In this document: positions 1 to 9,420 of the stretch, piece after piece
Position numbering within the stretch: position 1 is the stretch's first letter
Layout of the letters: each line of letters begins with the position of its first letter
DNA from: Clostridia bacterium
GTDB lineage: Bacteria > CBDUZB01 > JAGLHV01
Assembly: GCA_030595925.1 (NCBI GenBank)
Contig: JAUVLC010000094.1
Span: 1 to 9,420 of the forward strand
Reading direction: 5' to 3'
Length of the DNA stretch: 9,420 nucleotides
The notes under the pieces: generated by a model
What the model saw: the letters and a program-made list of their open reading frames with translations, nothing else
What the model was told of the DNA's origin: nothing
Database searches by the model: none
Made by a program: the position numbers and the translations under genes

Positions 1-953
1 AAATAATTATTATTATAAATTTGGGTCAACGGGTCTAACTGGTTTTTTATTTTGAGCTCTTCATAAAAACGGGCATTGGTAATGGAAACTGATGCCTGCA
101 GGGCAAGTAATTTTAAAATATCTCTATCCTCTTTCGGAAAAGCATCGATTTTATCACTATCCACATTTAAAACCCCAATAAACCGTTCTCCGGAAAACAA
201 TGGTATAGTAAAAATACATTTCACCTCTCCATAGGGCTCAACAAATCTTTTATCGTTTGATATGTCCGGAATATATAAAGGTTTTTTATTTTGAGCTACC
301 CATCCGGCTACCCCCTGTCCTATTTTAAACTTTATCTGGGAAATTTTTTTCTCTCTGTATCCGGAAATAACTTTTAATTCTAATTCCCCTTCTTCATTTA
401 AAAGCATAATAGAAAAAGAATAGTAATTTGCCAGAGATAAAACTTCATCGGCAATAAGATTTAAAAGCTTGTCCAAATCTAACATTTTATTCATTGCGGA
501 AGAAATAACCAAAAGCATGGACAATTCCTGTATTTTTCTATCCAAAACACTTTTTTGTTCTATAATAATTTTTTCATGGAATGTAAAATAAAAGTCCGAC
601 ATTTTAAAAACAAGTCGAAATAAAACTTTCTCAATTTCTTTTAAAATTAATTCCCCGGAAAAATCAACTTTCTCAACCTTTTCTTTTAAATACAACGCAA
701 ATACTTCCCTAAAATCTAAAAAACATTCCTGTAGGGAAGATGCCTTTATATTTTTATAAGGAGGTATTTCAGAAATTTCTTTCACTAAACTCTCTAATTT
801 TCGCTCATCTTTTTTTTCTATTATTTCCAATATTTTGCCAATATATTTTGAAAGAATTTGTCCATATTTTTTATCTTTTAAAAGTTTCCCATATTTTGAA
901 ATAAAATAGGATTCGTTTTGTTGTATTATTTCTCTCCACTCGATACTTTTCAT
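1..953 (-). CDS. GAF-domain sensor protein with start of a GGDEF domain (partial, C-terminus off window)
   Basis: The reading frame starts with ATG at 953, with AAGGAG seven bases upstream, and stays open for 317 codons to the window edge. Residues 1-130 are mostly helical by composition and match no family I recognise. Residues ~128-155 look like a helical linker. Residues ~160-297 read as a GAF domain, with the typical GQGVAGWVA (212-220), PLYIPDIS (225-232) and PLFSGERFIGVLNVDS (251-266) segments. After the linker ARFYEELKIKNQ comes LDPLTQIYNNNY (306-317), which matches the DPLTGLYNRRYF opening of GGDEF domains. The likely product is a cytoplasmic GAF-GGDEF diguanylate cyclase, or a degenerate cyclase acting as a c-di-GMP sensor. 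The GGDEF signature itself would lie outside the window, so catalytic competence cannot be judged. No signal peptide or membrane segment is visible. The gene lies 442 bp downstream of tktB on the same strand and probably has its own promoter. Confidence 0.85.
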   Translation of the reverse strand, partial: MKSIEWREIIQQNESYFISKYGKLLKDKKYGQILSKYIGKILEIIEKKDERKLESLVKEISEIPPYKNIKASSLQECFLDFREVFALYLKEKVEKVDFSGELILKEIEKVLFRLVFKMSDFYFTFHEKIIIEQKSVLDRKIQELSMLLVISSAMNKMLDLDKLLNLIADEVLSLANYYSFSIMLLNEEGELELKVISGYREKKISQIKFKIGQGVAGWVAQNKKPLYIPDISNDKRFVEPYGEVKCIFTIPLFSGERFIGVLNVDSDKIDAFPKEDRDILKLLALQASVSITNARFYEELKIKNQLDPLTQIYNNNY

Positions 954-1395: not shown

Positions 1396-2355
1396 TTATA
1401 AAGGAATGATTTTTTTCTTTCTTTTCATTACTTTTCTCACTGCTATCGCAATTGCTTTTGCTGTCAATCCAAATTTTTCCATCAACTCTTTTGCCGTTCC
1501 TGACTCTCCAAAGCTATCTTTGATTCCTACCATTTCCAAAGGGACCGGCATTTCCTTTGCTATAATTTCACTAACCATCCCCCCTAATCCCCCTATGAGC
1601 TGATGTTCTTCAGCTGTAACTAAAGCCCCCGTCTGTTTTGCGGCCTGAATAATCGCTTCTTTATCCGGCGGCTTAATTGTATGAAAATTTAATACTTTTA
1701 CAGAGATTCCTTCCTTTTTTAACTCTTCAACAGCTTTTAATGCTTCCCCTACCATTATTCCACAAGCAATAATCGTAACATCTTTCCCTTCATTAAGGGT
1801 AAGCGCTTTACCAAAAATAAATGGGGTTGATTCATGGGTTATCATAGGAATCGCTGCCCTGCCTAATCTAAAATAAACAGGCCCTTTAACTTCTTCTGCT
1901 ATTTTAAATACGGCCTTACGTGCTTCCAATGCATCACAGGGAACAACTACTTTCATATTGGGAATAACCCTCATTAGAGCAATATCTTCCAAAGCCTGAT
2001 GAGTTGCTCCATCTGCTCCCACTGTTATTCCTGCATGGGTCGCACCTATTTTTACATTTAAATTACAATAACAAATAACATTTCTAATCTGGTCCCACGC
2101 TTTTCCTGAAACAAAAATACTATACCCGCTGGCAAAAGCAATTTTATCGGTTAAAGATAATCCCGCGGCTATTCCCATTAAATTTTGTTCAGCAACTCCT
2201 ACATTAAAAAACCTATGTGGAAATTTTTTGGCAAACATATCTGTTTTAGTAGAACAAGAAGTGTCCGCATCTAAAACAACCACTTTCTTATTTTTTTCTC
2301 CCAGAAGAACCAATCCTTCCCCACACCCCTCTCTTGTTGAACTCATTTTTACCAT
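1396..2355 (-). CDS. tktB: Transketolase, C-terminal subunit (Pyr plus C domains)
   Basis: 319 residues, the usual size for the C-terminal half of a split transketolase. With the N-terminal subunit it transfers two-carbon ketol groups between sugar phosphates in the non-oxidative pentose phosphate pathway, in the cytoplasm. The pyrimidine-binding domain (about 1-165) has FFNVGVAEQNLMG (49-61), whose Glu56 is the residue that activates thiamine diphosphate, plus SGYSIFVSGKAWDQIR (76-91) and THAGITVGADGATHQALEDIAL (split as 106-113 and 114-127). The C domain (about 180-305) has HTIKPPDKEAI (225-235) and AEEHQLIGGLGG (248-259). A basic tail, KVMKRKKKIIPL, ends it. ATG at 2355 has AAGGA at a suitable distance; the ATG three codons later does not. 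The gene follows tktA by 28 bp and is last in the operon. A DXS-type enzyme is unlikely given the split layout. Confidence 0.93.
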   Translation of the reverse strand: MVKMSSTREGCGEGLVLLGEKNKKVVVLDADTSCSTKTDMFAKKFPHRFFNVGVAEQNLMGIAAGLSLTDKIAFASGYSIFVSGKAWDQIRNVICYCNLNVKIGATHAGITVGADGATHQALEDIALMRVIPNMKVVVPCDALEARKAVFKIAEEVKGPVYFRLGRAAIPMITHESTPFIFGKALTLNEGKDVTIIACGIMVGEALKAVEELKKEGISVKVLNFHTIKPPDKEAIIQAAKQTGALVTAEEHQLIGGLGGMVSEIIAKEMPVPLEMVGIKDSFGESGTAKELMEKFGLTAKAIAIAVRKVMKRKKKIIPL

Positions 2356-2383: not shown

Positions 2384-3199
2384 TCAAAAACTTAATTCTT
2401 TTAATGCCTGATCTGCCTGTTCTTTATTAGGGGCTTTCCCATGCCATCCAACGACATTCTCCATGAAAGATATGCCTTTCCCTTTTATCGTATGAGCAAT
2501 TATTGCTGTTGGTTTATTTTTTTCTTTTTCTGCGGTTTTAAAAGCATTAAGAACTTCTTGCATATTATGTCCGTCAATCTCTACCGTATGCCATCCAAAA
2601 GAATTCCATTTTTCCCTTAAAGGTTCAATGTTCATTACATCCTTTAAACACCCATCTATTTGCAATCCATTATTATCTACAATAGCACATAAATTATTTA
2701 ATCTATAATGTGCAGCAGCCATTGCGGCTTCCCATACCTGTCCTTCATTAAGCTCTCCATCTCCCATTAAACAATAAACTCTTTGTCCTTGATTATCCAG
2801 TTTGATCCCTAAAGCATTCCCAACAGCTATGGATAAACCCTGCCCCAGGGAACCGCTGGAAACTTCAATCCCTGGTAATTTTCTATCTTTTCCCGGATGA
2901 CCTTGCAGTCGACTACCTAATTTACGTAAAGTAAATAATTCTTCCTCAGAAAAATATCCGGCCCGGGCCAAACAAGCATAATGTACCGGACAACTATGGC
3001 CCTTAGATAAAATAAAACGATCCCTCATAACCCAGTCAGGATTTTCAGGATTATGTTTTAAAACAGAAAAATATAAAGCAACCATAATTTCAGTCGAAGA
3101 CAAAGATCCTCCCGGATGCCCCGAACCGGATTCTAACAGCATTAGAACAATATCTCTCCTTATCTGGTTAGCTTTTTTCTCTAATTCTTTATTTGTCAC
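2384..3199 (-). CDS. tktA: Transketolase, N-terminal subunit (thiamine diphosphate-binding)
   Basis: 271 residues, typical for the N-terminal half of a split transketolase. Visible signatures are SGHPGGSLS (26-34), SKGHSCPVHY (65-74), GHPG (100-103), GSLGQGLSIAVG (116-127), the thiamine diphosphate-Mg motif GDGELNEGQVWEA (146-158) ending in VDNNGLQIDG (174-183), HTIKGKGISFME (236-247) and WHG (252-254). Histidines 28, 68, 101 and 253 are those expected for substrate and cofactor contact in the family. It forms the active site together with the product of the next gene, 28 bp downstream. The start is GTG at 3199, with a GAGGGG about 9 bases upstream; the stop is TGA. The split is the normal two-gene form known from many bacteria and archaea, since the second gene has its own ribosome site. 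Confidence 0.93.
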   Translation of the reverse strand: MTNKELEKKANQIRRDIVLMLLESGSGHPGGSLSSTEIMVALYFSVLKHNPENPDWVMRDRFILSKGHSCPVHYACLARAGYFSEEELFTLRKLGSRLQGHPGKDRKLPGIEVSSGSLGQGLSIAVGNALGIKLDNQGQRVYCLMGDGELNEGQVWEAAMAAAHYRLNNLCAIVDNNGLQIDGCLKDVMNIEPLREKWNSFGWHTVEIDGHNMQEVLNAFKTAEKEKNKPTAIIAHTIKGKGISFMENVVGWHGKAPNKEQADQALKELSF

Positions 3200-3232: not shown

Positions 3233-5362
3233 TTATTTTTTATGACTGACCAAGACGATATCTAAAACCAAATTTAAAAATCTAAATTGTTTCCCTATAT
3301 CTCCAAACGGCACAAACTGTAAAGAAATTTTTTCATCCTCTAAAAAAGCTTTTAAAGCAGTAGAAAACTCTGCTTCTTTCAATTCTTTTCCCTTTGGCGG
3401 ACCCAACACTATAACAATCTTTACCCCGGCCTTTTTACATAAATCAACAAAAAACTTATATTCTACTTTTTCATATAGAACATAGTTTTTTTCAAATACT
3501 CCTTCTAATTGAAATTTTAATTTATGTTTTTCAATAACACTCTCAAATTCTTTTTTTATCTTTTTTAAATCTTCGCCATGTTCGTCAGGATAAAAATAGC
3601 CTACTTTAACTACTTTAAAAGTTTTACCATTTTCAGTCACTTCTTCCATAATGGGGTTTTTTGTCGGATAAATTTCTTCCACTAAAGGAATTTTTTCTAT
3701 CGGTTTTTGTTCAGATTTTTCTTCGGAAACTTTCTCCGACTCACTTTTTTTATCTTTAAATCCAAACACTTCTTTTTCCAAAAACTCTTCCGCTCTCCTT
3801 TTTTCCTCTTCTTTATCGTCAATTAATTTTTCGCTTTTTTCCGGTTCTTTCTCTTTTTCCGGTTCTTTCTCTTTTTGTTCCTCTTTTACTTCCAGTATTA
3901 TTTCTTCCGAAATTATCTTTTCCTCCGGAAGAAGTTCTCCCAGCAATGTTTTTATTGCATCTAAAGTTATTTTCTGTTTAGTAAGTTGGACATATGCATC
4001 TATTCTTTTCAAAAAACCTTCCAATTCGCGAATATTTGATTTTAATCTTCCGGCAATATAGAGAAGAATATCATCATCCAATTTTATATTTTGATTTTCT
4101 TCTTTCTTTTTTAAAATAGCTACCCTTGTTTCCAAATTAGGAGATTTTATATCCGCGGTTAATCCCCACTCAAATCTCGATTTCAACCGTTCTTCTACAT
4201 CTATTAATCTCTTGGGAGGTTTATCACTGGTGATAACAATTTGCTTTTGCGCATCATACAAAATATTAAACGTATGAAAAAATTCTTCCTGTGTAGATTC
4301 CGCTTCTGCCAAAAACTGAATATCATCAACCAACAAAATATCAAATTTTCTGCAGTGGCTCCGAAACTTTCGCACTGTTCCCTGCCGAATCGCATCAATT
4401 ACATCTTCTATAAATTTTTCTGCAGTAATATACAGGATTCGCAATTTTTTATTTTTCCTCTGAGAAAAATGTCCAATAGCGTGTAAAAGATGAGTCTTTC
4501 CCAGTCCTACCCCACCATAAATAAATAAAGGATTATAAATCTTTCCGGGATTTTCTGCTACAGCCAAAGCGGCCGCATGGGTAAACCGGCTATTCGGCCC
4601 AACGACAAAAGAATCAAAAGTATATTCCGGATTTAATTTCAATTCTCCGAAAGACTTTTCTTCATTGTCATTTTCTTGCTGCCCTTCTTGTGAATGTATA
4701 GTTTTTTCTATATCTTTCTTCTGTAATATTTCTTCAGTAAGATTCTTCTCTTCAGGAGAAAATTCAATTTCGCCGTTTTTATCACTTTTTTTATCAATAT
4801 CCAACAACTCTTTATCTTTCAAAATATCCATAATTTCCGCACTTCTTTCACTTGTTCCGAATCCCTCGCTGAATTCGTCATTTTTCTTTATCTGTATTTT
4901 TTCTTCTACTTCTTCCGGTTTTTCTTGTTTCACCTTTTCTTTTTTTACTTCTTCCGGTTTTTCTTGCTTCACCTTTTCTTTTTTTACTTCTTCCTCATCC
5001 CCCTTCGAAGCAGTACCCTGTTTATCATAAGATACTATATTTTCTAAAATAAATTCCAAAGATGGAGCACTTTCCGTATTAGAAGAATCTGCCACGTTGT
5101 CCTTCTTTGTTTTTTCCTCGAATGCAACAGGACAAATTTCTTTCAAAATATTTTCGATTCTTTCTTTCTCACCCTTATCTACATTATAGATATAAAAAAC
5201 CCATTTAAAAACTTTACTTATAGGAATAAAAGATTTCCCACAATCTTTCCCTATCTCTTTCGTTAAATTAGAAAGATCCTTTTCTTCCCCATCTATCCTT
5301 ATCTTGTATCTGCGAGCATCTTTTTCACATGGGGCATAAATAAATTCCCATTTTTTTATCAT
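3233..5362 (-). CDS. DnaA-type AAA+ ATPase lacking domain IV, with novel N- and C-terminal domains
   Basis: 709 residues. Residues 241-475 are a complete DnaA domain III: NPEYTFDSFVVG (244-255), Walker A GGVGLGKT (283-290), Walker B ILLVDD (342-347), sensor I VITSD (376-380), arginine-finger box ERLKSRFEWG (391-400, Arg396) and sensor II NIRELEG (443-449, Arg445). ATP binding and DnaA-like oligomerisation look intact. It is not the replication initiator: the helix-turn-helix domain IV that should follow residue ~475 is missing, and so is a recognisable domain I. Instead residues 1-82 form a small alpha/beta-like module, 83-240 a Lys/Glu-rich linker with a 13-residue tandem repeat, 480-570 a second charged linker, and about 575-709 an unassigned alpha/beta-looking domain with KIVIVLGPPKG (648-658). 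Start ATG at 5362 has AGGA 11 bases upstream; gcvH ends 21 bp before it and tktA follows by 33 bp. Hda/DnaA-paralog is the nearest known class. The function is unknown. Confidence 0.88.
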   Translation of the reverse strand: MIKKWEFIYAPCEKDARRYKIRIDGEEKDLSNLTKEIGKDCGKSFIPISKVFKWVFYIYNVDKGEKERIENILKEICPVAFEEKTKKDNVADSSNTESAPSLEFILENIVSYDKQGTASKGDEEEVKKEKVKQEKPEEVKKEKVKQEKPEEVEEKIQIKKNDEFSEGFGTSERSAEIMDILKDKELLDIDKKSDKNGEIEFSPEEKNLTEEILQKKDIEKTIHSQEGQQENDNEEKSFGELKLNPEYTFDSFVVGPNSRFTHAAALAVAENPGKIYNPLFIYGGVGLGKTHLLHAIGHFSQRKNKKLRILYITAEKFIEDVIDAIRQGTVRKFRSHCRKFDILLVDDIQFLAEAESTQEEFFHTFNILYDAQKQIVITSDKPPKRLIDVEERLKSRFEWGLTADIKSPNLETRVAILKKKEENQNIKLDDDILLYIAGRLKSNIRELEGFLKRIDAYVQLTKQKITLDAIKTLLGELLPEEKIISEEIILEVKEEQKEKEPEKEKEPEKSEKLIDDKEEEKRRAEEFLEKEVFGFKDKKSESEKVSEEKSEQKPIEKIPLVEEIYPTKNPIMEEVTENGKTFKVVKVGYFYPDEHGEDLKKIKKEFESVIEKHKLKFQLEGVFEKNYVLYEKVEYKFFVDLCKKAGVKIVIVLGPPKGKELKEAEFSTALKAFLEDEKISLQFVPFGDIGKQFRFLNLVLDIVLVSHKK
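3841..3876 (-). repeat. 18-bp tandem repeat in the DnaA-like gene
   Basis: Two exact copies of an 18-bp unit (CCGGTTCTTTCTCTTTTT on the plus strand) encode repeated KEKEPE-type hexapeptides around residues 496-508, in the second charged linker. This in-frame array can expand or contract without breaking the frame. Confidence 0.8.
4908..4994 (-). repeat. 39-bp tandem repeat in the DnaA-like gene
   Basis: Two 39-bp units (4908-4946 and 4947-4985) differ at one base, T or C at the same site, and a third partial unit of 9 bp follows. They encode two copies of the 13-residue EEVKKEKVKQEKP motif, residues about 124-150, in the first linker. The near identity suggests recent duplication by slippage or unequal exchange. 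Confidence 0.85.
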
Positions 5363-5383: not shown

Positions 5384-5782
5384 TTATTTTTTATTATCTT
5401 CTTTTGTAATTTTTGCATACTCTTCCGCATTTAACAATAAATCTATTTCTGATATATCATTTATTTTTAATTTCATTATCCACCCAGACTGATAAACACT
5501 TGTATTTATTACATTGGGAATGTCACTCAAAGAAAAATTAACATCAATTATTTCCCCGCTTAAAGGGGTAAATAAATCGGACACCGATTTAGCCGATTCT
5601 ATAATTCCAAAACTGTCTCCTTTTTTCAACTCTTTCCCGATCGGCGGTAATTCTATAAAAATTATTTCTCCCATTACTCTTTGTGCATAATCACTAATTC
5701 CTATTATGCCTGAATCTCCCTCAACTTTTACCCAACTATGCAACGGAGAATATTTTAATTCTTGAAGAAAAAGTCCTTCCAC
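5384..5782 (-). CDS. gcvH: Glycine cleavage system H-like lipoyl carrier protein
   Basis: 132 residues, the normal size for H protein. Family features are YSPLHSWVKVEGDSGIIGISDYAQRVMG (starting at 11), the early strand FIELPPIGKELKKGD (42-56), the lipoylation hairpin GIIESAKSVSDL (59-70) with Lys65 as the expected lipoyl site, FTPLSGEIIDVN (71-82) and the SGWIMKLKI strand (99-107). In the glycine cleavage system it shuttles the aminomethyl group between P, T and L proteins. No gcvP, gcvT, lpd or lipoate ligase gene lies in this window, so partners would be elsewhere or it serves another lipoyl-dependent role. Start is GTG at 5782 with a strong AGGAGG; that site overlaps the pilT stop codon (13 bp gap), so translational coupling is likely. 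The DnaA-like gene follows by 21 bp. Confidence 0.9.
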   Translation of the reverse strand: MEGLFLQELKYSPLHSWVKVEGDSGIIGISDYAQRVMGEIIFIELPPIGKELKKGDSFGIIESAKSVSDLFTPLSGEIIDVNFSLSDIPNVINTSVYQSGWIMKLKINDISEIDLLLNAEEYAKITKEDNKK

Positions 5783-5795
5783 TTTTGGTATCCTC

Positions 5796-6872
5796 CTAAG
5801 TCTCTCTGGATATCCCTTTGATTTTTAACATTAAATTATCAGGGTTAGTAGAATAAGCCATTGCATTATCTAAAGAGATTTTTTTCTCTAAAAACAACTG
5901 GTAAATATCCTGATCAAATGTTTTCATCCCGTAAAATTCTCCCTGATCCATTACCTTGTACAAATCCTTATTCTGAGCATCTAAAATAAGTTTTTTGATT
6001 AAAGATGTTCCGATTAATACCTCGGTAGCAGGAACTAAACTTTCATTACTATCCATAGAGGGAATCAATCTTTGAGCTACAATTCCACGCAATACATTGG
6101 CTAATTGTATTCTCGCTTCCGTATTATGTGCGGGAGGATAAAGACTTATTATCCGGTCAAGGGTCTGTACTGCATCCAGAGTATGAATAGTAGAAAAAAC
6201 CAAATGTCCCGTTTCAGCAGCAAGAATCCCTTCCCGAATAGTTTCAAAATCCCTCATTTCTCCAACTACAACAATATCCGGGTCCTGTCTCAAAACATAT
6301 TTTAAGGCACTGGAAAAAGAATGGGTATCTTCTCCCACTTCCCTCTGACTAATAGAAGATTTTTCATCCTGATGATAAAATTCAATGGGATCTTCAATAG
6401 TAATGATATTACACACTTTATTCTTATTGATATAATCAATCATTGTATTCATTGTTGTTGTTTTTCCCGCTCCGGTTACTCCCGTTATTAAAATCAATCC
6501 CCTTTTTTCCTGACACAATTTTATTAATGTTTCTGCAGGTAAATTTAAATCTTCAAACTTTTTCATTTTCAAAGGAATAACCCTTAAAGTAAGAGCTATA
6601 GTTCCCTTTTGACGATACATATTTACCCGAAAACGGGAAACACCTGTAATAGTATAGGAAAAATCCAATTCTTTTTCCCGTTCAAAAACTTTCTTTTGCT
6701 CTGGGTTCAGCAATTTATAAGCAAGTTCTTCTATGTGTTTGCCAGTAAATCCTTCAAATTTAGTACTAACTAATTCACCATTTATTCTAACCGAGGGAGA
6801 AACTCCAGCTTTAAAATGAATATCCGAAATACCTTTCTTAATCATTAATTGCAAAATTTCATTAACATCCAT
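5796..6872 (-). CDS. pilT: PilT-like type IV pilus retraction ATPase
   Basis: 358 residues, the normal length for PilT. It is a cytoplasmic hexameric ATPase of the secretion ATPase superfamily that powers pilus retraction (twitching motility, DNA uptake). The N-terminal PAS-like domain contains ISDIHFKAGVSPSVRINGEL (15-34). The ATPase core has Walker A GVTGAGKTTT (131-140), the Asp box ITIEDPIEF (157-165), Walker B VVVGEMRD (201-208) and the His box HLVFSTIHTLDA (223-234). Arg81 and other arginines of FRVNMYRQKG lie where family members contact nucleotide. The AIRNLIRE motif typical of canonical PilT is not recognisable; the matching region reads SLIKKLILDAQ (290-300), so a PilT2/PilU-type paralog is possible. 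Start ATG at 6872 has an ideal AAGGAGG six bases upstream. It lies 25 bp after rpiB, and no other pilus gene is in the window. Confidence 0.92.
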   Translation of the reverse strand: MDVNEILQLMIKKGISDIHFKAGVSPSVRINGELVSTKFEGFTGKHIEELAYKLLNPEQKKVFEREKELDFSYTITGVSRFRVNMYRQKGTIALTLRVIPLKMKKFEDLNLPAETLIKLCQEKRGLILITGVTGAGKTTTMNTMIDYINKNKVCNIITIEDPIEFYHQDEKSSISQREVGEDTHSFSSALKYVLRQDPDIVVVGEMRDFETIREGILAAETGHLVFSTIHTLDAVQTLDRIISLYPPAHNTEARIQLANVLRGIVAQRLIPSMDSNESLVPATEVLIGTSLIKKLILDAQNKDLYKVMDQGEFYGMKTFDQDIYQLFLEKKISLDNAMAYSTNPDNLMLKIKGISRET

Positions 6873-6897: not shown

Positions 6898-7374
6898 TTA
6901 AACGAATTTTTCCTCTGTGTTATTTTTTCTTAAAGCACCTTCTATCCGCATAATTTTTTCAATGCGACATATATGCCTTTCTTCATTGGAAAATGGAGTA
7001 ATCAACCAGTTTTCAACTATTTGATTAGCTTTATTTCTATCTACAATCTCACTTCCCAGGCAAAGAATATTTGCTCTATTATGTTTCCTTACCAAGAAAG
7101 CTATTTGTTCATCATAAACAAGAGCAGCCCTTATTCCTCGAACCTTATTCGCCGCAATACTCATTCCCACTCCGGTAGCACAAAAAAGAATCCCTCTTTC
7201 ATATTCATGATTACTTACTGCTTCTGCAGTAAGTAAAGCAAAATCAGGATAATCACATGATTGTTGACTAAAACAACCAAAATCCTTCACTTGATGTCCG
7301 GCTTTTATTAAAAAAAATTTTATTTTTTCTTTTAACTCAAAACCTCTGTGATCTGCTCCCAAAGCAATTTTCAT
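6898..7374 (-). CDS. rpiB: Ribose-5-phosphate isomerase B
   Basis: 158 residues, close to the usual ~150 for RpiB. It interconverts ribose 5-phosphate and ribulose 5-phosphate and so supplies the transketolase encoded further down the operon. Family marks are GADHRGFELK (6-15), YPDFA (42-46), the phosphate-binding/catalytic stretch FCATGVGMSIAANKVRGIRA (64-83) with Cys65 at the position of the E. coli catalytic cysteine, the following YDEQIAFLVRKHN, and ILCLGSE. I chose ATG at 7374 rather than the TTG one codon earlier; AAGGA lies about 10 bases upstream. The C-terminal ~15 residues (RKNNTEEKFV end) extend slightly beyond the common core. LacA/LacB galactose-6-phosphate isomerase subunits share the fold, but the pentose-phosphate neighbours favour RpiB. 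Confidence 0.93.
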   Translation of the reverse strand: MKIALGADHRGFELKEKIKFFLIKAGHQVKDFGCFSQQSCDYPDFALLTAEAVSNHEYERGILFCATGVGMSIAANKVRGIRAALVYDEQIAFLVRKHNRANILCLGSEIVDRNKANQIVENWLITPFSNEERHICRIEKIMRIEGALRKNNTEEKFV

Positions 7375-7396
7375 CAAAAATTTTCCTTATTTTAAA

Positions 7397-7999
7397 TTAT
7401 TTTTCCGCAAAATCAATAATTTTTACCTTGTCCCCATTTTTTAATCCGCAGGCATTAGCTTCATCTGTATCTATATGACACTCCAGGGCAAAATCTCCTC
7501 TTACCCTTACCTGAACATTCCCAAAAACAAGCCCTCTTTCTCCCTCCACCTCTACAGACACTTTGTCTTTGTCTTTAACTTTATATTGTTGAGCATCTTC
7601 TGTCCTCATATGAATATGCCGGCGAACTACAATACAACTTGATTTTATTTCCTTTTCCCCTTTCGGCCCAATAACCTTTATTCCAACAGTCCCTTCTAAA
7701 TCTCCGGAATCTCTTAAAGGCGGATTTATTCCCAAAAAAAATGCATCTGTTCGGGAAATTTCTATCTGGGTTTTTTTTCTTAAAGGCCCAATTATTCTCA
7801 CTTTATTAATTCTATTTTTCGGCCCGACAATAACCAATTTTTCTTTACAGGCGAATTGTCCCGGTTGAAGTAAATCCTTTATTTTGTTTAATTTAGAACC
7901 CTTTCCAAAAAAGAAAAATAAATCATCCTCGCATAAATGAATATGATGATTAGAAATATTAGCAATAATAGGTTCCCCGATACTTTCTAACCGAATCAT
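7397..7999 (-). CDS. pduL: PduL-type phosphate acyltransferase (phosphotransacylase)
   Basis: 200 residues, the usual size of PduL-like phosphotransacylases. The family exchanges phosphate and CoA on acyl groups (acetyl- or propanoyl-CoA to acyl phosphate) and is unrelated to Pta. Two PTAC domains are visible: the first with NHHIHL (17-22), GQFACKEKLVIVGPK (47-61) and GPLRKKTQIEISRTDA (71-86), the second with VVRRHIHMRTEDA (124-136) and LECHIDTDEANACGL (172-186). Histidines 19, 21, 128, 130 and 175 are the expected zinc ligands, and Arg74 and Arg96 (PPLRDSGDLEG) sit where phosphate is bound. No microcompartment encapsulation peptide or shell gene is seen, so a soluble housekeeping form making acetyl phosphate for an acetate kinase encoded elsewhere is the best guess. 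ATG at 7999 has a GGGGAG site unusually close. It sits 41 bp after tpiA and 22 bp before rpiB. Confidence 0.9.
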   Translation of the reverse strand: MIRLESIGEPIIANISNHHIHLCEDDLFFFFGKGSKLNKIKDLLQPGQFACKEKLVIVGPKNRINKVRIIGPLRKKTQIEISRTDAFFLGINPPLRDSGDLEGTVGIKVIGPKGEKEIKSSCIVVRRHIHMRTEDAQQYKVKDKDKVSVEVEGERGLVFGNVQVRVRGDFALECHIDTDEANACGLKNGDKVKIIDFAEK

Positions 8000-8040: not shown

Positions 8041-8790
8041 TTACATAAACTTTACTATTTTAATAAAATTATCCACGGACAAACTTGCCCCACCTATCAA
8101 TCCCCCATCTATATTCTGACAGGACATCAACGCTGAAATGTTCTCCGGCTTTATACTTCCGCCATATAAAATTCTTATTTCCTCTGATTTACCTATAAAA
8201 ATACTTTCCAAAATTTCTCTGATGAATTTATGAATTTCTTCCGCTTGCAAAGGGGTTGCCGTTTTACCGGTACCAATAGCCCAAACAGGTTCATAAGCAA
8301 CGACTAATTTACTAAAGTCTTCTACTTTTAAATCTGCCAAACCCTCTCTTAATTGTTTTTCTACTACCCCAAAAGCTTCTCCTTTTTCTCTTTGGGTTAA
8401 TGTTTCACCTACACAAACAATCGGTATTAAATCATAACAAAATGCAGTTTTTACTTTTTTGTTAACAGATTCATTGGTCTCTCCGAAATAAGCCCTTCTT
8501 TCCGAATGCCCAATAATTACATATTTACATCCTACATCCTTTAACATCAAAGGAGATATTTCCCCTGTATAAGCTCCTTCTTTTTCCCAATACATATTTT
8601 GTCCGCCCAAAAAAATGTTTGAATCACAAATAATTTTTTTTAGTTCTCCTAAAAGCGTAAAAGGGGGACAAACAACAATTTCTCTATCTAGTATGTCTCT
8701 TAATTCTGTCTTTAATTCGCCTACCAAAAATAGAGCACTTTCCGTTTCTTTATTCATTTTCCAATTTCCGGCAATTAATACCTTTCTCAA
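8041..8790 (-). CDS. tpiA: Triosephosphate isomerase
   Basis: 249 residues, the standard length. It interconverts dihydroxyacetone phosphate and glyceraldehyde 3-phosphate in the cytoplasm and supplies the triose phosphate that transketolase uses. Catalytic residues are all present: Asn9 and Lys11 in AGNWKMN (7-13), His95 in IIGHSERR (92-99), Glu167 in AYEPVWAIGTGKTA (165-178, which includes the mobile loop 6), and YGGSI (209-213) with GGLIGGASL (229-237) for phosphate binding. The start is TTG at 8790 (TTG AGA AAG), supported by AAGGAGG nine bases upstream; no in-frame ATG gives an N-terminus of family length. It is the first gene of the operon, with the 484-bp gap upstream, and pduL follows 41 bp downstream. 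Confidence 0.95.
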   Translation of the reverse strand: MRKVLIAGNWKMNKETESALFLVGELKTELRDILDREIVVCPPFTLLGELKKIICDSNIFLGGQNMYWEKEGAYTGEISPLMLKDVGCKYVIIGHSERRAYFGETNESVNKKVKTAFCYDLIPIVCVGETLTQREKGEAFGVVEKQLREGLADLKVEDFSKLVVAYEPVWAIGTGKTATPLQAEEIHKFIREILESIFIGKSEEIRILYGGSIKPENISALMSCQNIDGGLIGGASLSVDNFIKIVKFM

Positions 8791-8829: not shown

Positions 8830-8891
8830 CAAAATAGACACCGCCAATTTTTAAAAGCAGGCTATTACGCACCTGAACGACAAACCAACTA

Positions 8892-8911
8892 CCCCGCAGC
8901 AAGCTACGGGG
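8892..8911 (-). repeat. GC-rich palindrome at left edge of repeat copy 2
   Basis: The same 20 bases as at 1066-1085 (CCCCGCAGCAAGCTACGGGG), with a 9-bp stem that is continuous, with one G-U pair, on the minus strand. Exact conservation between the two copies contrasts with the drift in the middle of the element, suggesting that this end is what is recognised or was most recently copied. Confidence 0.7.
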
Positions 8912-9002
8912 AATCTAAGATTTATCCCACATACCTTTTGAGCGGTAAAATACGGGATAATCAACCCCGAAGCCCTTCGACTCCCTACAAGAGAGTTTAT
9001 GC

Positions 9003-9070
9003 TGAGCACTTCGACTGAGTTTATGCTGAACAAAGCAAAGTGCTCAAGATAAACTCAGCTGAAGTGTTCA
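9003..9070. repeat. Long imperfect stem-loop in repeat copy 2
   Basis: The 22-base arms at 9003-9024 and 9049-9070 are inverted repeats with three mismatches, one of which is a G-U wobble in RNA. The 24-base loop can pair further (TGAACA with TGCTCA, one mismatch). Copy 1 has no equivalent long stem. This is the largest secondary structure in the window. Confidence 0.75.
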
Positions 9071-9222
9071 GGGTTTATTCGACTGCAGAATTTTTACCAG
9101 CGTAGCTGAAAAAACGCAACGTCTCATTGAATCAAAATCAAAGATATAACATAGCCTGTTAATGCAAAATCTATAATGTTCTTAGATATTAATAGATGAT
9201 ATGATAAAGTGTCAAGCTTCCC

Positions 9223-9274: not shown

Positions 9275-9420
9275 ATGATAACAAATCATTTACCAAAGAA
9301 CTACGACACATTTATTGGAATCGATGTTGACAAAAAAAGTTTTTCATTTACTGTTAAGGACAATTATACCATGAATCGATCTAAAAAAATACCAGCTAAG
9401 CCAAAACAATTTTATGAGTA
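9275..9420 (+). CDS. IS110-family transposase (partial, N-terminus only)
   Basis: Forty-eight codons are visible before the window ends. Start ATG at 9275 has an excellent AAGGAGG six bases upstream. FIGIDVDKKSFSFTVKDN (13-30) is the first strand of the RuvC-like DEDD domain of IS110-family transposases, usually seen as FIGIDVSK; Asp17 would be the first catalytic acidic residue. The family recombines DNA guided by a bridge RNA and ends in a Tnp20 domain with a conserved serine, which lie beyond the window. The gene is divergent from the operon. Whether it is intact cannot be told from this fragment. A RuvC or other RNase-H-like protein is a less likely alternative. Confidence 0.85.
   Translation, partial: MITNHLPKNYDTFIGIDVDKKSFSFTVKDNYTMNRSKKIPAKPKQFYE

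Follow-up and report, generated by a model that had tools for sequence, protein, structure and literature searches.

What does a DnaA-type ATPase without domain IV do in an operon of carbon enzymes? The question is raised by a window of 9,420 nucleotides (nt), the whole stretch of Clostridia bacterium DNA analyzed here, in which a frame that we named DnaA* is preceded by gcvH and followed by transketolase genes (Table 1). A first-pass annotation of this DNA had credited the frame with a complete set of domain III motifs, and this was borne out. A Pfam search of the window protein returned a Bac_DnaA match (PF00308) at residues 243-403 (E=1.1e-68) and a weak Hda_lid match at residues 412-474, the Walker B aspartates were located at residues 346/347 and sensor I at about 375-380, and Walker A, the Arg finger and sensor II were present as well. 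The closest solved chains were DnaA structures, which aligned over residues 200-490 only. At E<=1, the same Pfam search found neither DnaA_N (PF11638, domain I) nor Bac_DnaA_C (PF08299, domain IV) in the protein. The lack of domain IV, likewise claimed at first pass, was corroborated by a whole-genome search with PF08299, which located the domain on another contig and not in the window protein.

Table 1. Features of the DnaA* frame and of its neighbors, in positions of the window
Feature	Position	Strand	Remarks
DnaA* ORF (DnaA-derived AAA+, without domains I and IV)	3233..5362	-	709 aa, ATG start
N-terminal domain, residues 1-80	5123..5362	-	orphan family, profiles A2/A7
Charged, fast-evolving linker, residues 81-240	4643..5122	-	identity comparison with congener
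DnaA domain III AAA+ core and lid, residues 241-475	3938..4642	-	Pfam, structure and alignment matches
Walker A GGVGLGKT, residues 283-290	4493..4516	-	
Ala354	4301..4303	-	replaces invariant DnaA lysine (B. subtilis K222, ssDNA contact)
Arg396, Arg-finger position	4175..4177	-	B. subtilis R264; 26/26 kept
Arg445, sensor II	4028..4030	-	B. subtilis R313; 26/26 kept
Charged linker 2, residues 476-573	3644..3937	-	no zinc ribbon in window protein
C-terminal domain, residues 574-709	3236..3643	-	orphan family, profiles A1/A6
gcvH	5384..5782	-	upstream neighbor, 21 nt from DnaA*
pilT-type ATPase (T2SSE)	5796..6872	-	
rpiB	6898..7377	-	
pduL-type phosphate propanoyltransferase (PTAC)	7397..7999	-	
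tpiA	8041..8790	-	
Transketolase N-terminal subunit	2384..3199	-	directly downstream, 33 nt from DnaA*
Transketolase C-terminal subunit	1396..2355	-	
GAF protein	3..953	-	cut by contig end

A profile search of the window genome revealed three PF00308 cores, namely that of the window gene and those on contigs C175 and C78. The C175 protein is a DnaA of 457 aa that adjoins dnaN and carries domain IV, which excluded the possibility that the window gene is the sole dnaA of its genome. DnaA with domain IV was also present in 19 of the 20 genomes having DnaA*, and the 20th genome is 66% complete. The NCBIfam DnaA model TIGR00362 nevertheless accepts the window protein (354.1 bits against a cut-off of 343.9), and automatic annotation would therefore probably label it DnaA, a wrong name that it probably bears in databases. 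With the Hda model TIGR03420, the protein scored 119 bits and remained below the cut-off of 194.8. Elsewhere in the window genome, weak PF08299 matches fell mostly within frames of ~330 aa, the one profiled of which proved to be a Y1_Tnp transposase. Y1-type frames of ~330 aa with a C-terminal stretch matching the DnaA domain IV model were observed in loci L005, L006 and L007 (contigs C100, C129 and C155 of the window genome, G000), and such frames may distort dnaA gene counts.

The architecture of the window protein recurs in related genomes. The C-domain profile A1 detected it in all 16 genomes in the phylum of G074, in five of the six in the phylum of G069 (the exception being a genome of 76% completeness), in 5/5 genomes in the phylum of G258 and in all three genomes of the window genus, that is, in 29 of the 30 genomes from four small phyla, and it was absent from ~375 other sampled bacteria. 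The window genus appears to represent the fourth of these phyla, since the kinship listing has nothing nearer than "same domain" outside the genus. A broader profile, A6, run against 386 genomes across bacteria, returned identical lineages and one chance match; this match, in G209 (E=5e-4), was treated as such and contains four internal stop codons. The N-domain profile A7 again recovered the DnaA* lineages and nothing beyond, and a Priestia candidate (L043) was discarded as a short core match only. Nearly all intact relatives share the layout of N-domain, linker, core, linker and C-domain.

We placed 71 cores in a maximum-likelihood tree with 200 bootstrap trees. All 26 DnaA* cores fell on one side of a branch with support of 99 (bootstrap, not fully settled) and 97 (SH-aLRT), the root position being untested, and their single origin was recovered in 100% of the 200 bootstrap trees. 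The DnaA proteins from DnaA*-carrying genomes fell among ordinary DnaA. We infer from these data that the DnaA* cores form a clade, and an old dnaA duplication, inherited vertically, is the simplest account of its origin.

Compared with the nearest congener, the N- and C-domains are 89% and 90% identical, versus 62% and 79% for the two linkers. The same held across relatives, in which the linkers are free to vary while the core and both terminal domains are held constant, and this strong constraint ruled out that DnaA* is a degenerate copy. The terminal modules proposed at first pass thus proved to be real conserved domains, both of which are recovered by profiles in four phyla. Since profile searches yielded no significant Pfam or PDB match for either of them, they are, as judged from sequence, two previously undescribed domain families. 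In profile comparisons, the C-domain showed no similarity to DnaA domain IV, domain I or receivers, and the N-domain showed none to DnaA domain I. AlphaFold2, run with three sequences as input, gave a mean pLDDT of 38.5 for the C-domain and a low-confidence 57.4 for the N-domain, and the outcome of the search for a hidden domain IV helix-turn-helix in the C-terminal part, of which no sequence evidence was found, rests on sequence. Two further candidates for the C-domain, a generic alpha/beta fold and an Argonaute MID-like pattern, gained no support from the Pfam and PDB profile searches. One or two zinc ribbons occur in the second linker of many relatives from two phyla.

The two domains are also found together in a partner protein without ATPase, in which the N-domain and the C-domain are joined by a linker alone. 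The partner gene lies directly upstream of DnaA*, at 0-34 nt, in eight genomes (G074, G098, G099, G100, G101, G102, G106 and G107) and a few genes upstream in G258 and G384. Profile searches with A6 and A7 found no second copy of either domain in the window genome, and the partner is therefore lost or unrecognisable there.

To compare individual residues, we aligned 41 DnaA and 26 DnaA* cores with B. subtilis DnaA as the reference. The positions K157, D214, D215, R264, R313 and G317, which cover the Walker A lysine, the Walker B aspartates, the Arg finger and sensor II, were unchanged in all 26 DnaA* cores, and the ATPase core of DnaA* is thus intact as judged from sequence. Between phyla, the AAA+ cores are 61-71% identical. 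In contrast, the K222 position is occupied by lysine in all 41 DnaA and in none of the 26 DnaA*, which have alanine, serine or a gap instead; these 26 cases go back to a single evolutionary event, and the loss has persisted in all of them. Mutagenesis of B. subtilis DnaA documented that I190 and K222 are essential in the ssDNA-binding motif and that R202, R206, F218, H231, R264, L269, G317 and R321 are essential at the filament interface (PMC6669920). The window protein lacks K222 and retains all eight interface residues as well as I190, so some contact with ssDNA could persist. In the G074 family, the core is far more diverged and the interface positions R202, R206 and H231 are changed, which makes it less likely that DnaA* and DnaA must form a mixed filament in this family. 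Collectively, the absence of domain IV and of the ssDNA lysine, the presence of a separate DnaA in nearly every genome and the single ancient origin strengthened the view that DnaA* is a DnaA paralog that has lost DNA recognition and gained new modules. That part of the first-pass annotation stood, and the function of a "scaffold or switch" that it attached to the protein remains conjecture.

The same annotation had found no obvious answer in the placement of the gene. A comparison across relatives revealed conserved receivers, histidine kinases, enzymes of triose, pentose and deoxynucleoside metabolism and the ATPase-less partner. A receiver or kinase lies beside DnaA* in most relatives and the partner in many; in the window, neither these genes nor those for a microcompartment (BMC) shell adjoin DnaA*, and no receiver, kinase or partner adjoins it in the window genus, so this setting was invisible from the window alone. 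With local gaps, the gene order in the four phyla is tpiA, rpiB, (deoC), (pilT), (partner), (gcv genes), DnaA*, (lplA), (histidine kinase), one or two receivers, transketolase N and C, deoB, (PiT, PhoU) and PNP. In several genomes, DnaA* and the receiver or kinase gene that follows it share 11-26 nt. The identities of HisKA/HATPase with GAF, receivers, DeoC, FTCD_C, LplA, BMC shell, transketolase, RpiB, PduL-type PTAC and TIM were checked, whereas the labels DeoB, PNP, adenosine deaminase, PiT and PhoU represent our own reading of the sequences. The intact relative of the window GAF protein in G001 is a GAF-GGDEF diguanylate cyclase.

Several other features of these loci were observed. At L085:7546-8025 (minus strand), and in similar genes of L086-L092, a degenerate receiver carries, by eye, Glu in place of the phospho-acceptor Asp; in several genomes, the stop codon of DnaA* lies within the gene of this Glu-type receiver, and a normal receiver usually lies slightly further on. 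Among the stand-alone receivers of the window genome, the best one (C74, 43%) lies, by eye, beside a membrane sensor and a uvrA-like gene and is not clearly the missing partner. In the window itself, two intergenic repeat blocks of ~90% identity (1061-1304 and 8887-9132) lie on either side of the operon and share words such as TTTATCCCACATACCTTTTGAGC, and an IS110-like transposase frame (by eye) starts at 9275-9420 (plus strand) and is cut by the contig end.

In the G106-G112 lineage, genes for a BMC shell, DeoC and RpiB form part of the DnaA* locus. Such a combination marks SPU microcompartments, for which the breakdown products of DNA are the presumed substrates (PMC8217296). DeoC (PF01791), RpiB (PF02502) and a BMC shell thus occur together in this lineage, and the window has RpiB and PduL. 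DnaA* and a histidine kinase were observed within SPU-type loci in L092, L094, L097 and L098 (genomes G106, G108, G107 and G110, respectively). The main texts of two microcompartment surveys mention no DnaA-like component (PMC8217296, PMC4207490).

Overall, DnaA* is best read, on the strength of its sequence and setting, as an ATP-dependent assembling switch that operates without DNA binding, is driven by two-component and metabolic input and probably acts via AAA+ contacts with itself or with DnaA. In the mechanism that we propose, dnaA would have been duplicated before the four phyla separated, giving rise to DnaA*. As suggested by its residues, DnaA* would bind ATP and assemble through a DnaA-type AAA+/AAA+ interface; with no domain IV it would no longer hold dsDNA, and with the K222 equivalent gone it has probably lost its hold on ssDNA as well. 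The two new domains and the ATPase-less partner would provide input and docking surfaces, and the operon structure suggests that the neighboring receivers and histidine kinases set the state of DnaA* by carbon and nucleoside supply. The least certain step is the last one: the output would most likely be an ATP-state-dependent contact with the real DnaA, the filament of which would be capped or remodelled as by Hda, and replication initiation would then track pentose, triose and deoxynucleoside status.

Taken as a whole, the mechanism of a duplicated, DNA-blind ATPase that is set by signals and acts on DnaA and replication initiation is put forward tentatively, at somewhat below an even chance. 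It is favored by the core motifs, the separate DnaA, the single origin, the kept interface residues, the overlaps with receiver and kinase genes, the enzyme neighbors and the partner genes. We also counted in its favor that E. coli genetics connects enzymes of central carbon metabolism with replication proteins, although DnaA* is not involved there (PMC3080795). Counted against it were the lack of a conserved Hda-type clamp-binding motif, the fact that in the window genus, where receivers, kinase and partner are not adjacent, the signalling input is deduced from relatives, and the consideration that an operon neighborhood may reflect shared expression and not shared function. More doubtful is the further claim that an undescribed ATP-driven signalling system exists, that its receivers and histidine kinase steer, by way of two new domain families, both the DNA-blind AAA+ assembly derived from DnaA and the ATPase-less partner, and that it couples pentose and deoxynucleoside metabolism directly to replication initiation.

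Almost equal in rating to the mechanism aimed at DnaA, and differing from it only in the DnaA target, is a two-component effector unrelated to replication. DnaA* would here be an ATP self-assembling signalling scaffold on metabolic enzymes, a microcompartment or a second-messenger output; the receivers would dock on the new domains, and the DnaA ancestry would supply only the assembling ATPase. The metabolic and signalling character of the neighbors, with no replication gene conserved beside DnaA*, fits such a role, as do the overlaps with receiver and kinase genes, the position inside SPU-type loci in one lineage, the loss of both DNA-binding elements and the diverged interface of the G074 family. 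However, the between-phyla identity of the core at surfaces that DnaA uses exceeds what a free-standing scaffold would need, and DnaA is available for contact in nearly every genome.

Pilus polarity had been named at first pass as one possible target; a regulator of cell polarity or pili that positions or switches the PilT motor is improbable. The pilT gene is the second gene upstream of DnaA* in the window and also lies close to it in the G001, G002 and G384 loci, but it is absent from the sampled neighborhoods of two of the four phyla. The C78 paralog, in which MshEN is combined with a DnaA core, has MglA-like GTPase, roadblock and DUF4388 genes as its neighbors, yet it belongs to a different lineage, among other DnaA cores, and keeps K222. 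Just as hard to credit is a second initiator or helicase loader that loads on DNA via the new C-terminal domain. Its AAA+ ancestry of the DnaA/DnaC/IstB type, the zinc ribbons of many relatives and a C-domain that might bind nucleic acid would suit this role, but the gene context is not replicon-like, the C-domain does not resemble domain IV, the partner carries the same C-domain without any ATPase and the ssDNA lysine is lost. Finally, an Hda equivalent that stimulates DnaA-ATP hydrolysis at the clamp (RIDA) would agree with the Hda lid and Hda model matches, the kept Arg finger and the absence of any other Hda-like protein from the window genome, but it is the least probable reading, because a regular-expression scan of 25 members found no conserved clamp-binding motif, the Hda score is below the cut-off and the protein has three times the length of Hda and two extra domains.

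Besides DnaA*, other unusual proteins with a DnaA core were observed, and this core appears to have been put to new use on several occasions. The C78 paralog (L003:988-2472, minus strand; L058:2364-7522) has relatives at L054:155-1639 and L055:1653-3155; its cluster comprises an MglA-like GTPase, a roadblock protein, two DUF4388 proteins and an ExeA-like AAA protein, and it may be a polarity or motility ATPase. In an unrelated genome, a TPR-like protein of ~2000 aa ends in a DnaA core (L051:5958-11999, minus strand). Further examples from unrelated genomes are a protein with two such cores, encoded near DUF4388 and roadblock-like genes (L050:3643-5598, minus strand), a coiled-coil-like protein of 1746 aa with a DnaA core (L052:3512-8752, minus strand) and a DnaA-like protein of 375 aa, the gene of which adjoins dnaN (L053:4638-5765, plus strand).

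It is an open question how bacterial cells adjust the start of replication to their nutrient state. Genetic links of carbon enzymes with replication proteins have been described in E. coli and B. subtilis, and their mechanism is unsettled (PMC3080795, PMC7231150). A copy of DnaA that keeps the assembly surfaces, has dropped DNA binding and is tied by gene order to sensors and to enzymes of triose, pentose and deoxynucleoside metabolism would be a concrete, testable candidate for a link between nutrients and replication. If DnaA* acts outside replication, the DnaA core would have taken on a new role as a general signalling ATPase. In both cases, the analysis defines two new domain families and identifies a protein that, despite scoring over the DnaA cut-off, is not an ordinary DnaA.

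In the open literature on DnaA paralogs, DnaA-like ATPases and microcompartments, with subscription journals and preprints outside the scope, we found no description of the DnaA* family. Its loci in the G106-G112 lineage resemble the SPU microcompartment loci in that DnaA* lies beside BMC shell, DeoC and RpiB genes (PMC8217296, PMC4207490), whereas the window has only tpiA, rpiB and pduL and no shell genes. The C78 paralog shares with DnaA* the DnaA core, the lack of domain IV, an extra N-terminal domain and its occurrence in the window genus, but it differs in its c-di-GMP-type MshEN domain, its cluster of MglA, roadblock and DUF4388 genes, the kept K222 and its separate branch. DnaA itself (TIGR00362; domain III, PF00308) has the same AAA+ core with Walker A/B, sensor I, Arg finger and sensor II, and DnaA* scores over the cut-off of its model; unlike DnaA, DnaA* is without domains I and IV, has lost the K222 equivalent, carries two orphan domains and occupies a separate branch of the tree. 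With Hda/HdaA (TIGR03420), it shares a DnaA-derived AAA+ core with lid, the absence of domain IV and the Arg finger; at 709 aa, it compares with ~230-250 aa for Hda. DnaA* is thus a DnaA-derived ATPase that is Hda-like in lacking domain IV and unlike Hda in size, domains, genomic context, clamp-binding motif and cut-off score.
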